From Eubacterium sp. (GTDB taxonomy: Bacteria > Bacillota > Clostridia > Oscillospirales > Acutalibacteraceae), in the NCBI GenBank assembly GCA_029054965.1, contig JAIDEF010000330.1, forward strand, positions 1 through 11,393: a stretch of 11,393 nt of DNA, read 5' to 3'. Below, in pieces: positions 2,791 through 4,684 of the stretch. The position numbers were made by a program, and so were the translations under genes. Position 1 is the stretch's first letter. Each line of letters begins with the position of its first letter. A model generated the notes under the pieces. It saw only the letters and a list, made by a program, of their open reading frames with translations. It did not search any database and was not told where the DNA came from.

Positions 2791-3258
2791 TTATTCTACA
2801 GACTTAATTTCAAGCTCAAGATTGCCGATAGGAGCTTCAACAACAACAGTTTCGCCCTTCTTTGCACCCATTAATGCCTTGCCGACAGGACTTTCATCAC
2901 TGATTTTACCATCAGCAGGATTTGACTGAGCAAAGCCAACAATCTCATAGGTTGCCTCAACCTTATCATTCTTTCTGATAACTGTAACCTTTGAACCCAT
3001 GCTTACTGTATCTGAACTTACTGAGTCAATAATTACAGCATTGTCAAGCTGGTATTCAAGCTCGCTGATACGAGCCTCAATCTTTGCCTGCTCTGATTTT
3101 GCTTCATCATATTCACTGTTTTCTGAAAGGTCACCGTATGAACGTGCAACCTTAAGTTTTTCTGCTATGTCAATTCTGCCTTCGGTTTTTAAAAAGTCAA
3201 GTTCTTTTTCAAGTTCTGCCTTACCTTCTGCAGTCATTTTGAATTGTTTCGTTGCCAT
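2791..3258 (-). CDS. greA: Transcription elongation factor GreA
   Basis: GreA enters the secondary channel of RNA polymerase and stimulates cleavage of backtracked transcripts. The 155-aa product matches the usual length of about 158. It has an N-terminal coiled coil ending in the signature ARSYGDLSENSEYDEAK (38-54), whose acidic tip residues D43 and E46 are the ones that coordinate the catalytic Mg in this family. The C-terminal globular domain carries SPVGKALMG (123-131). The frame extends 46 codons further upstream, but that stretch is low-complexity Ile/Leu/Phe/Cys, runs through the promoter and does not resemble GreA. An AAGGAG lies 9 nt before the ATG at 3256-3258, which fixes the start. 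It is the first gene of a greA-lysS operon, a gene order common in Firmicutes. Confidence 0.97.
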   Translation of the reverse strand: MATKQFKMTAEGKAELEKELDFLKTEGRIDIAEKLKVARSYGDLSENSEYDEAKSEQAKIEARISELEYQLDNAVIIDSVSSDTVSMGSKVTVIRKNDKVEATYEIVGFAQSNPADGKISDESPVGKALMGAKKGETVVVEAPIGNLELEIKSVE

Positions 3259-3294
3259 AATAAAAATCTCCTTATCGCATTTTCTAATCATTTT

Positions 3295-3323
3295 ATTATA
3301 TATTATAATTATTATAGTGTCAA
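3295..3323 (-). promoter_or_regulatory. Consensus sigma-A promoter of greA-lysS
   Basis: On the minus strand TTGACA (3318-3323) is separated by exactly 17 nt from TATAAT (3295-3300), matching both consensus hexamers fully. The greA start codon lies 36 nt downstream of the -10, leaving a short leader with no room for a riboswitch or T-box. It is the only evident promoter for greA and lysS. Confidence 0.9.
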
Positions 3324-3377
3324 GTTTATATAAAAAATTCACACATATGCATAGCTTAATACAAAAAGAAAAGCTGA

Positions 3378-3524
3378 ATGTTAATAGCAACAACAAGCAA
3401 AAGCATTAGATTTCCTAACAATATAATTGATGATGTAGAAAAGGTCATTCAGAATAACAACTGTACCTTTACTGCATTTGTTGTTGAGGCAGTAAAATTT
3501 GCACTTGACAACATCCAATTATAA
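3378..3524 (+). CDS. Small ribbon-helix-helix (Arc/CopG-like) protein, 48 aa
   Basis: This short frame runs from ATG at 3378 to TAA at 3522-3524. It reads as a ribbon-helix-helix fold: a beta-strand KSIRFPN (8-14), helix A around IIDDVEKVIQ (16-25), a turn NNNCTFT, and helix B FVVEAVKFALDNI (34-46). The R-F-P strand and the (T/S)xFVxEAV pattern are typical of Arc/CopG DNA-binding dimers, including small phage-type proteins of this class. A TGA lies directly upstream of the ATG, so no longer in-frame start exists nearby. The A-rich stretch upstream is a poor ribosome binding site and no clear promoter is visible, so expression is uncertain. It lies between the greA promoter and the peptide promoter, reads in the same direction as the peptide, and has no toxin gene beside it of the type II kind. 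It could regulate the adjacent promoters; that is inference. Confidence 0.6.
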   Translation: MLIATTSKSIRFPNNIIDDVEKVIQNNNCTFTAFVVEAVKFALDNIQL

Positions 3525-3547
3525 TATAATAGCTGCCTTTTGATTTA

Positions 3548-3576
3548 TTGACAAACAACATATTTTACTATATACT
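3548..3576 (+). promoter_or_regulatory. Strong sigma-A promoter of the small hydrophobic peptide gene
   Basis: TTGACA (3548-3553), a 17-nt spacer and TATACT (3571-3576) give a near-perfect vegetative promoter on the plus strand. The transcript should start near 3582-3585, at or just before the GATAAGGA at 3584-3591. It lies 23 nt after the ribbon-helix-helix gene stop. Confidence 0.85.
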
Positions 3577-3583
3577 CAGTACG

Positions 3584-3660
3584 GATAAGGAAAACTACCA
3601 TTCACGGTAGGCGGTTAAATCTTACCCCAACCCTGCAAAGGGTAAAAGGGGGTGCTACTT
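3584..3660 (+). promoter_or_regulatory. Structured 5' leader that can hide the peptide ribosome binding site
   Basis: The predicted leader has three elements. A 5-bp hairpin CTACC/GGTAG spans 3595-3610. A hairpin ACCCT/AGGGT spans 3630-3643 and is capped by a GCAA tetraloop. Outside it, ACCCC (3624-3628) can pair with GGGGT (3649-3653). This outer pairing covers the ribosome binding site AGGGGGTG (3647-3654), which sits 6 nt before the ATG and matches the anti-Shine-Dalgarno except for one G-U wobble. A strong but occluded binding site is usual for type I toxin mRNAs. The structure is read by eye and not energy-calculated. Confidence 0.6.
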
Positions 3661-3735
3661 ATGGATTATCTTGTTATTATGGCAATCATTATCATTGTTT
3701 CAACAGGCTACATAGTTGCAATAAAAAAGAAGTAA
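3661..3735 (+). CDS. 24-aa hydrophobic membrane peptide, candidate type I toxin
   Basis: The frame ATG 3661 to TAA 3733-3735 encodes a peptide starting MDYLVIMAIIIIV, with one hydrophobic segment at residues 4-20 containing S14-T15-G16, and a basic tail KKK (22-24). One membrane helix plus a charged tail is the layout of Fst/Ldr/TisB-like type I toxins, which damage the membrane when overproduced. It has its own strong promoter, an excellent but hidden ribosome binding site, and an antisense RNA facing it. Its last codons and stop lie inside the left arm of the transcription terminator (3725-3737). I do not recognise the sequence as a named toxin. A small non-toxic membrane regulator is the alternative. 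The gene structure is well supported; toxicity is inference. Confidence 0.75.
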   Translation: MDYLVIMAIIIIVSTGYIVAIKKK

Positions 3736-3810
3736 TCGCCTCTCCTACAAGTTGATTACTTCTTTTAATTAACCGCAGGGGCTAACCGTCTATCGGCAAG
3801 CTCCTTATCT
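3722..3810 (-). ncRNA. Antisense RNA facing the peptide mRNA, candidate type I antitoxin (about 90 nt)
   Basis: From the promoter at 3817-3845 a minus-strand RNA should start near 3810 and end at the shared inverted repeat 3725-3766, with a U-rich tail at about 3728-3722. It has no credible reading frame. It begins with GATAAGGA (3809-3802), then a hairpin (3801-3794 with 3788-3781, 5-nt loop, one mismatch and one G-U pair), then CCCC and a repeated CGGTTA (3788-3783 and 3775-3770). It is fully complementary to the peptide mRNA over the terminator and the final codons. Its CCCC stretch could also meet the G-rich ribosome binding site in trans. The role as antitoxin is inferred from architecture. 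Confidence 0.65.
3725..3766. terminator. Shared bidirectional terminator of peptide mRNA and antisense RNA
   Basis: A perfect 13-bp inverted repeat (3725-3737 and 3754-3766) flanks a 16-nt loop. Read on the plus strand it ends the peptide mRNA (tail TTTTAATT); read on the minus strand it ends the antisense RNA with a better U run (TTTTTTATT). The peptide stop codon lies inside the left arm. The loop contains CTCTCCT on the plus strand, which could pair with the peptide's own G-rich ribosome binding site or with the matching loop of the antisense RNA. Confidence 0.85.
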
Positions 3811-3816
3811 GCTTTT

Positions 3817-3845
3817 ATATTAGCATATGAAAATAAATTTGTCAA
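3817..3845 (-). promoter_or_regulatory. Strong extended -10 promoter of the antisense RNA
   Basis: On the minus strand TTGACA (3840-3845), a 17-nt spacer and TAATAT (3817-3822) preceded by TGC make an extended -10 promoter. The distance from the -10 to the GATAAGGA leader sequence is 7 nt, the same as at the peptide promoter. The -35 overlaps the base of the hairpin at 3844-3865. Confidence 0.8.
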
Positions 3846-3868
3846 CACCACAGCATTGTGGTGTTTTT
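3844..3868 (+). terminator. Plus-strand intrinsic terminator just past the sigG stop
   Basis: A 9-bp perfect stem (3844-3852 with 3857-3865) has a 4-nt loop and is followed by a T run to 3868 on the plus strand. In the minus direction, after sigG, the stem is followed by GACAAATTT, a poor U tract. The good orientation is therefore plus, where the only upstream transcript is that of the peptide. It may catch read-through and protect sigG from antisense transcription. Confidence 0.7.
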
Positions 3869-4634
3869 ATTGTCCCTTTATCCTCTTTAATGCATTCTTT
3901 TCAAGTCTGCTGACCTGTGCCTGAGATATGCCTACCTCCTTGGCAACCTCCATCTGCGTTTTGCCCTGCATAAAGCGAAGATACATTATATTGCGTTCTC
4001 TGTCATCAAGGCGATTAATTTCATCCTTAATCATTATTTCATCTATCCAGTCGGTATCTGAATTACTGTCGCCAACCTGATCCATTACATAGATTGTGTC
4101 ACCGCCGTCGTTATAGACAGGCTCATAGAGCGAAACAGGGTCAACGATTGCTTCAAGTGCAAGAACAACATCGCTCTTTTTCATACCAAGCTCTTTTGCG
4201 ATTTCCTCAACTGTCGGCTCCTTCTGATTTTCATTAATAAGACGCTCCTTCACCTGCATTGCTTTATAGGCGGTATCTCGCATTGACCTTGAAACACGTA
4301 CAGCATTATCATCACGAAGATAACGTCTTATTTCGCCGATACACATAGGCACTGCATAGGTACTGAAGCGGACATCCAAATCAAGATTAAAATTATCAAT
4401 GGCTTTAATTAATCCGATTACACCTACCTGAAAGAGATCGTCCATATTTTCGCCCCTGTTGGAAAATCTCTGAATAACAGAAAGAACCAGTCTTAAGTTA
4501 CCTTTAATCAGTTCATCACGAGCCTGCTTATCACCACTGTGTGCCTTTTTCAGCAGTTCAATTTTTTCGCTTTCCTTAAGCACCTTCAAATCATTTGTAT
4601 TAATTCCGCAGATTTCAACCTTATTAAATTGCAC
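3867..4634 (-). CDS. sigG: RNA polymerase sporulation sigma factor SigG
   Basis: Sigma-G directs late forespore gene expression during endospore formation. The product is 255 aa, against 260 in B. subtilis. It opens with KVEICG (5-10), a characteristic sigma-G N-terminus. Core-binding region 2 includes NLRLVLSVIQRF (46-57) and DDLFQVGVIGL (65-75). FSTYAVPMCIGEIRRYLRD (90-108) leads into region 2.4. EPVYNDGGDTIYVMDQ (171-186) matches the sigma-G linker. The region 4.2 helix-turn-helix is TQMEVAKEVGISQAQVSRLE (226-245). The frame is open to a TTG at 4668-4670, but a GTG at 4632-4634 has AAGGA 8 nt upstream and aligns with the known N-terminus, so it is taken as the start. No spoIIGA-sigE lies beside it in the window, unlike the common cluster. 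No clear sigma-F/sigma-G promoter could be made out. Confidence 0.95.
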   Translation of the reverse strand: MQFNKVEICGINTNDLKVLKESEKIELLKKAHSGDKQARDELIKGNLRLVLSVIQRFSNRGENMDDLFQVGVIGLIKAIDNFNLDLDVRFSTYAVPMCIGEIRRYLRDDNAVRVSRSMRDTAYKAMQVKERLINENQKEPTVEEIAKELGMKKSDVVLALEAIVDPVSLYEPVYNDGGDTIYVMDQVGDSNSDTDWIDEIMIKDEINRLDDRERNIMYLRFMQGKTQMEVAKEVGISQAQVSRLEKNALKRIKGQ

Positions 4635-4684
4635 ATTATCATTCCTTAAAATTTTATGTACAAAAAACAAATGATAATGTTAAA

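Follow-up and report, generated by a model that had tools for sequence, protein, structure and literature searches.

A dispersed clostridial family of putative type I toxin‒antitoxin modules of bsrG/SR4 design, with a 5' tag common to toxin mRNA and antisense RNA

The window analysed here, an 11,393 nt stretch of Eubacterium sp. DNA (contig JAIDEF010000330.1), carries at nt 3548–3868 a gene for a small hydrophobic peptide that is faced by a convergent antisense RNA gene. The unit is probably a type I toxin‒antitoxin module of the bsrG/SR4 kind, in which the toxin mRNA would read through its first terminator and fold end to end, and the antisense RNA would act by strand displacement. The type I reading as such is well supported by comparison (a recurring family, a conserved peptide frame, and covariation within the units), with putative toxin and antitoxin roles.

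A preliminary description, made from the letters of the window, had proposed convergent near-consensus promoters, a 24-aa ORF with a hidden ribosome-binding site, an antisense RNA of about 90 nt facing the peptide gene and a 13-bp palindrome at the stop codon, and this anatomy was confirmed (Table 1). The ribosome-binding site AGGGGGTG and the CCCC that pairs with it can be read directly from the sequence, the antisense layout coincides with a covariance-model match at nt 3721–3811, and the palindrome AAAAGAAGTAATC/GATTACTTCTTTT is perfect over its 13 bp (3725–3737 with 3754–3766). When three forms of the window RNA were folded, the CCCC:SD helix had about four expected pairs and the SD was about 25% unpaired in each. 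The leader motif, read as GCGGUUAA, is also complementary to UUAACCGC at nt 3769–3776. Single promoter matches prove little, as the region contains nine promoter-like sites against 3.5 ± 2.1 in shuffled sequence; the pair of promoters recurs, both sites matching at least 9/12 consensus positions in 97 of 133 related units (sense 106, antisense 118; random single windows 39 of 399). Another promoter-like site (10/12) lies directly upstream of the toxin promoter, at nt 3498–3525 (+). The unit does lie at a chromosomal site between greA and sigG, as had been described, and this location proved uninformative: of 30 sigG loci from the genus, covered with flanks reaching up to about 1.5 kb, one has greA next to sigG, namely the window itself (nt 2791–4670). 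This is either a point of rearrangement or an artefact of contig joining in the fragmented assembly (421 contigs). A 48-aa ORF upstream (nt 3378–3524, +) matches NCBIfam NF041551 (YlcI/YnfO family N-terminal) above the cut-off, with E 7.1e-9.

Table 1. Features of the putative toxin‒antitoxin unit, in window coordinates.
Feature	Position (nt)	Strand	Remarks
Toxin mRNA promoter, TTGACA-17-TATACT	3548–3576	+	11/12 consensus match; 5' end expected at about 3583
5' tag of toxin mRNA, GGAUAAGGAA	3583–3592	+	Matches the antisense RNA 5' end, GAUAAGGAGC (complement of 3800–3809)
Leader hairpin, CUACC/GGUAG	3595–3610	+	Predicted fold; motif recurs across units
Leader motif, GGCGGUUA	3610–3617	+	Complementary to UAAUCGCC at the stop codon, 3733–3740
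Hairpin masking the ribosome site	3625–3653	+	CCCC (3625–3628) with GGGG of AGGGGGTG
24-aa hydrophobic peptide MDYLVIMAIIIIVSTGYIVAIKKK, putative toxin	3661–3735	+	ORF; purifying selection in relatives
T1, 13-bp hairpin across the stop codon and the lysine codons before it	3725–3766	.	Antisense terminator; possibly in part that of the toxin mRNA
Antisense RNA, putative antitoxin, about 90 nt	3721–3810	−	5' hairpin with loop GAUAGAC, then T1
Antisense RNA promoter, TTGACA-17-TAATAT	3845–3817	−	10/12 consensus match
T2, second + strand terminator	3844–3865	+	Immediately beyond the antisense promoter; possible actual 3' end of the toxin mRNA

The family was traced with R1, a covariance model built from 23 antisense RNAs, which matches the window with 79 bits (E 1.3e-14), the window unit being itself part of the seed. 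The terminator helix is 96% paired, with 5/8 pairs changed on both sides, and the 5' hairpin 81% paired with only 1/9 such changes, so that the hairpin is less secure than the terminator helix; the RNAalifold consensus taken alone is weak (−6.5 kcal/mol). By DNA, the unit was matched in 15 of the 40 genomes searched, the window's own included, and the loci of relatives keep this layout while their peptides diverge. A covariance search had been expected to find the unit in other contexts and it did: at E ≤ 0.001, and with the window's own genome counted in each sample, R1 matched 44 of 80 genomes in the genus sample; in the order sample it matched 79 of 295, spread over 52 of 148 genera and with as many as 14 copies in one genome, in the class sample 67 of 291 (45 of 181 genera) and in the phylum sample 19 of 299 (15 of 215 genera). 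The window's genome has a single copy. At least 117 stretches of genome contigs hold an 18-base motif of the antisense RNA, the carriers among the matches listed being mostly Lachnospiraceae, Oscillospiraceae and other clostridia, along with Anaerovibrio and Phascolarctobacterium. Culturable carriers of units include Coprococcus comes and Butyrivibrio hungatei (L124, L120). The few matches from other phyla (Bacteroides, Myxococcales metagenome assemblies) may be binning errors; the Myxococcales stretch gave no R1 match. The motif also occurs in 17 viral contigs, and in the three inspected were found an integrase, a tail fibre protein and a holin, and a ParB-like protein with a replication initiator and an endolysin, respectively. 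Plasmid and phage collections gave no match to the DNA, nor to one Hol_Tox peptide searched with the low-complexity filter on.

At 176 of 220 R1 matches, among which some units are counted twice because they carry two names, a 15–60 aa ORF that has a ribosome site and encodes a hydrophobic stretch terminates where the antisense RNA has its 3' end. Random positions in these loci gave such an ORF in 31 of 1949 cases, in a control that did not avoid the units; the R1 matches are therefore not chance. The matches that entered the counts were 97 of 99 from one set, 66 of 81 from another (four repeats and 11 weak matches were dropped) and 57 of 58 loci from a third (one had no ORF). The 162 distinct units with a ribosome site were reduced to 144 and then to the 133 in which both 5' modules were recognised by pattern, a step that favours units with canonical cores. 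Arrays of R1 matches were seen, with five matches within 2.4 kb in one genome (G187:C1:290500–292900; a weak sixth, on the opposite strand, is omitted) and seven within 3.4 kb in another (G110:C17:40100–43500). In genome G013, two antisense RNAs stand tail to tail about 50 nt apart (L289, 505–738), with no convincing toxin ORF between them, which makes them an antitoxin-only pair, and elsewhere in the same genome (C1:223836–223947) an antisense RNA lies beside an apparently decayed toxin region and is a possible orphan antitoxin.

The preliminary description had held that an unconserved peptide frame would speak against it. In pairs of related ORFs that overlap in membership and so are not independent, pN/pS was 0.228 (374 pairs), and for the window-like group (94 pairs) it was 0.411; on this measure the peptide frame is under purifying selection. 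The window peptide is of the type MxYLxxxxIxIxATGYIxxIKK, and the same RNA accompanies several other peptide types. It gave no Pfam match up to E 1 and no NCBIfam match, in keeping with the earlier remark that it does not resemble Fst, and PADLOC returned nothing for four proteins, including this peptide and the product of the 48-aa upstream ORF. Peptides of other R1 units do reach Pfam Hol_Tox (PF16935, cut-off 23.3 bits), with 32 bits for L071, 32.5 for L083, 30.9 for L136 and 36.8 for L221. The cut-off is not reached by the window peptide or by six of its sisters, which are of the window type or short. By sequence, the sister peptides grade into Hol_Tox, the family that includes bsrG. NCBIfam ComI and PepG1 were rejected for L136-type peptides, the matches being below cut-off. 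In 30 genomes chosen by R1, all six Hol_Tox matches over the cut-off adjoin an R1 match. In the class sample, chosen regardless of R1, Hol_Tox exceeds the cut-off in 31 of 291 genomes; R1 (E ≤ 1) matches 17 of 30 such loci, mostly weakly, and 16 of the 17 matches are convergent at the toxin 3' end (L277 is the exception), while the other 13 loci gave no R1 match.

A single hydrophobic helix with a basic tail would fit a small membrane regulator, its level set by the antisense RNA, as well as a toxin. We consider a regulator unlikely, because the ORFs vary widely (169 distinct among 191 units) while the RNA logic is kept, the copies are dispersed, some of them on phage-like contigs, and, of the characterised relatives found, the nearest is a type I toxin.

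The most distinctive property of the putative toxin‒antitoxin family is that the two RNAs of a unit share a 5' tag peculiar to that unit (e.g. GTGCTACC, GCGCTGCC, GGCAACC or AAGGTAATCGG). Over the 133 units the likeness of a unit's own two tags scored 17.2, compared with 11.2 for permuted pairs (sd 0.27, maximum 11.9 of 200), and in the short-peptide subset of 39 units own tags scored 29.8 against 26.0, a value reached in 0 of 500 permutations. Comparison of 57 units within six genomes gave 20.04 for the own tag and 18.59 for permuted ones (sd 0.40), none of the 500 permutations reaching the own value, though the own tag was best or tied in only 21 of the 57 units and one genome (G187) went the opposite way; this set, from a crude extraction, used 59 of 61 matches, 57 units having enough leader, and includes some copies without a clear toxin.

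Matched tags could also be left behind by gene conversion or inversion between the inverted repeats, with RNA pairing playing no part, and a few units have similar promoter regions for both RNAs as well (scores up to 39), while mirrored terminators flank some units. What makes this origin improbable is that promoter regions are in general hardly more alike than permuted ones (own 20.1, permuted 19.4, sd 0.35), which leaves conversion of whole promoter regions unsupported as the source of the tags, that 112 units with unlike promoters are still tag-matched (16.9 against 11.2), and that sense-specific and antisense-specific core motifs stay distinct.

Because the tag is identical in both RNAs, it is complementary to the mRNA 3' UTR only if the mRNA crosses the antisense gene. 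Folding of such long RNAs gave at least five expected 5'–3' tag pairs in 129 of 133 units with the own tag and in 104 of 133 with swapped tags (p = 1.6e-14). Complementarity covaried with the tag most in the tag itself (z 6.6), the next values being 3.3 for the antisense core and 2.5 for the upstream region; pairing of the tag with the start region, coding region, terminator or linker of the toxin mRNA was rejected, as none gave clear complementary covariation. The window RNA, folded to the antisense start, has 7.5 tag pairs, and its leader makes 7.6 with UUAACCGC; when it is folded to T2 or nt 3872 the tag pairing is 0.73 and the leader:UUAACCGC pairing is kept. A contact between the leader and the antisense 5' loop is not claimed, since for most of 23 units the duplex scores lie within about 1 sd of shuffles (exceptions, for the leader against the antisense 5' part, include L027, L013 and L021). 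More tentatively, the tags might constitute a private RNA bar code: the first 10–15 nt of the antitoxin would repeat the 5' end of the toxin mRNA from its own unit, strand exchange would take place at the closing 5'–3' helix, and covarying codes could keep up to a dozen sister modules per genome from cross-silencing.

How the toxin mRNA ends bears on this fold. At least six T are found in the 10 nt examined in the antisense direction in 114 of 133 units and in the sense direction in 24 of 133, so that, going by T runs, the T1-type hairpin of the family would serve well to terminate the antisense RNA and usually not the toxin strand. In the window T1 is T-rich on both sides. Of the shared bidirectional terminator first proposed, the palindromic hairpin stands, while the toxin-side T run is weak in most units of the family. 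The antisense RNA has the expected length of about 90 nt by layout, while the toxin mRNA may reach about 290 nt, instead of the 185 nt first proposed, because of T2, a second + strand terminator that had gone unmentioned. Outward terminators occur 50–100 nt past the antisense start in 22 of 126 units on the + strand (control strand 7 of 126) and 50–100 nt past the toxin start in 17 of 126 (control strand 8 of 126), and a + strand terminator lies within 200 nt past the antisense start in only 33 of 126. The one-sided T run, together with this enrichment past each start, makes read-through of T1 by the toxin mRNA plausible.

These findings also bear on the parallel drawn in the preliminary description with the Fst/par system of plasmid pAD1, where one terminator serves both RNAs and these pair through repeats close to where translation begins. 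The unit has in common with Fst/par, as that system is presented in the available part of PMC7472228, convergent promoters, a hairpin across both RNAs (palindromic and lying over the stop codon) and a hidden ribosome site, and the window hairpin is T-rich on both sides. The family, however, lacks the direct repeats: compared with the leader, the antisense 5' module scores 31.1 in the same sense and 15.0 as reverse complement, with 13.3 for shuffled sequence (n = 144), which is an inverted repeat in the DNA giving identical, not complementary, 5' regions, so that the antisense tag equals the leader. The hairpin is mostly a one-sided terminator, and Pfam returned no Fst family for the window peptide and 27 sister peptides. 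The match to the Fst/par architecture was thus not borne out, and we think a module of that type very unlikely. A mobile repeat with no function is hardly credible: the units are dispersed, multi-copy and also found on mobile elements, and 29 of 220 R1 matches failed the ORF filter, yet purifying selection on the frame, the two promoters and the covarying tags are all kept.

A second predicted long-range helix of the toxin mRNA would join the leader to the stop codon. In most units inspected, GGCGGUUA in the leader has its complement, UAACCGCC, at the stop codon. In the main set, own pairs scored 18.7, permuted pairs 18.6 and shuffled leaders 13.1, that is, complementarity without covariation, because both sides are nearly invariant. 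Covariation was found among the Hol_Tox relatives, where in 27 of the 30 loci own pairs scored 17.6 against 15.5 for permuted ones (sd 0.54, 0 of 1000 permutations). On folding, the helix (at least three pairs) forms in 120 of 133 units in the nascent RNA, in 53 of 133 in the T1-ended RNA and in 5 of 133 in long forms; in the window, GGCGGUUA:UAAUCGCC has 7.7 expected pairs in the nascent RNA and 0.0 in the T1-ended and long forms. The SD accessibility of folded units hardly changes between RNA states (0.16–0.22), so that folding does not show a translation switch, and, with the ribosome site hidden in all folded forms, activation needs a further step, for example processing. The leaders of many units (e.g. 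L122 and L099) contain successive blocks CCCUC, GAGGG, CCCUC and GGAGG-like, which could pair 1:2 and 3:4, hiding the ribosome site, or 2:3, leaving it free, in the manner of an attenuator; in several Lachnospiraceae units ATTACATAGAAA comes after these blocks.

In the bsrG/SR4-type reading that we favour, transcription of the toxin mRNA would start at about nt 3583 and at least partly read through T1 to T2 (about nt 3870). A local hairpin on the ribosome site would keep this mRNA poorly translated. The leader GGCGGUUA would pair first with the region of the stop codon as it is transcribed, and the 5' tag would pair with the 3' UTR. The antisense RNA would start inside the mRNA 3' UTR with the mRNA's own 5' tag and, being complementary to about 90 nt of the 3' part of the mRNA, could displace the 5' strand; the long duplex would be cut by RNase III, as described for SR4, SR5 and RatA. 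Should the antisense supply fall, the peptide would be made and might damage the membrane. The scheme applies less cleanly to the window, where the predicted tag pairing is lost when the RNA is folded to T2.

Searches of the literature on 'holin-like toxin', type I terms and PF16935 gave no account of the antisense family in the sources covered, among which subscription papers were scarce, and an earlier description elsewhere is possible. For C. acetobutylicum a holin-like toxin gene with a mapped transcription start has been reported, the available part of the paper mentioning no antisense partner (PMC9045289). A toxin‒antitoxin-like branch with no Rfam family at gathering score is present in 67 of the 291 sampled clostridial genomes; its shortest peptides match no protein family, and the antisense RNA finds the units whatever the peptide. 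The covarying tags also make it testable how many near-identical type I modules can coexist without cross-talk.

The preliminary description had allowed that the window RNA might belong to an already named RNA family with another role; no Rfam match at gathering score covers it. Matches to psRNA6 (nt 3468–3547, 25 bits, E 0.00083), RsaJ (nt 3624–3760, 23.3 bits, E 0.042 and 0.0017), ctRNA_pT181 and others are far below gathering scores and were taken as chance. Among 19 member loci, Rfam likewise gave no family at gathering score, bar one unrelated riboswitch, a THF riboswitch near an R1 unit (L093, 1257–1361, −). Of the other known systems, CD2517.1-RCd8 and its relatives in Clostridioides difficile are also convergent, overlapping type I modules with several copies per genome, with toxins of 50–53 aa for which the available part of the source reports no homology (PMC6563280), and they are set apart here by description. 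In the clostridial Hol_Tox loci the antisense RNA, as detected by R1, is convergent in 16 of 30, and the same leader:stop and tag logic is seen where inspected. They differ in their longer peptides, which pass the Pfam cut-off, whereas the window peptide is below it.

It is through these loci that the family connects to bsrG/SR4 of the Bacillus subtilis prophage SPbeta. The bsrG peptide passes the Hol_Tox cut-off, and its RNA matches Rfam RF01412 (BsrG), a family whose curated structure contains both long-range helices; both had been inferred from comparison before that structure was examined. RF01412 also matches three of 12 loci tested, L252 (42.6 bits), L259 (36.4) and L261 (24.1), against a gathering score of 55, all three being clostridial Hol_Tox loci also found by R1, and none of the other nine. 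It aligns to L252 over the full length, with its helices on the tag (GGUAAUCGG with CCGAUUACC) and on the leader:stop pairing. The window RNA has no RF01412 match up to E 10, and R1 does not detect SR4 (the best match in that locus has 14.9 bits and lies elsewhere). Since neither the peptide nor the RNA of the window reaches PF16935 or RF01412, the window unit is linked to bsrG stepwise, via intermediates. According to the available part of PMC6562991, used here for bsrG regulation and sizes, SR4, SR5 and RatA bind the 3' ends of their toxin mRNAs over 100–140 bp and RNase III cuts the duplexes. With bsrG/SR4 the window unit has in common a small hydrophobic peptide with a basic tail and a hidden ribosome site, and the family a convergent antisense RNA over the toxin mRNA 3' end and predicted helices between the 5' end and the 3' UTR and between leader and stop codon (11 pairs of complementarity in bsrG). 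The sizes differ, with 24 aa in the window against 38 for bsrG, and about 90 nt for the antisense RNA against 180 for SR4 (PMC6562991, available part). A further difference lies in the position of the antisense start: in the family it falls at the 3' strand of the predicted panhandle and gives the shared 5' tag, whereas bsrG and SR4 have no shared tag (likeness 11.0, shuffled 11.8). The comparison ties a family annotated as 'putative holin-like toxin' to the experimentally studied bsrG/SR4 mechanism.
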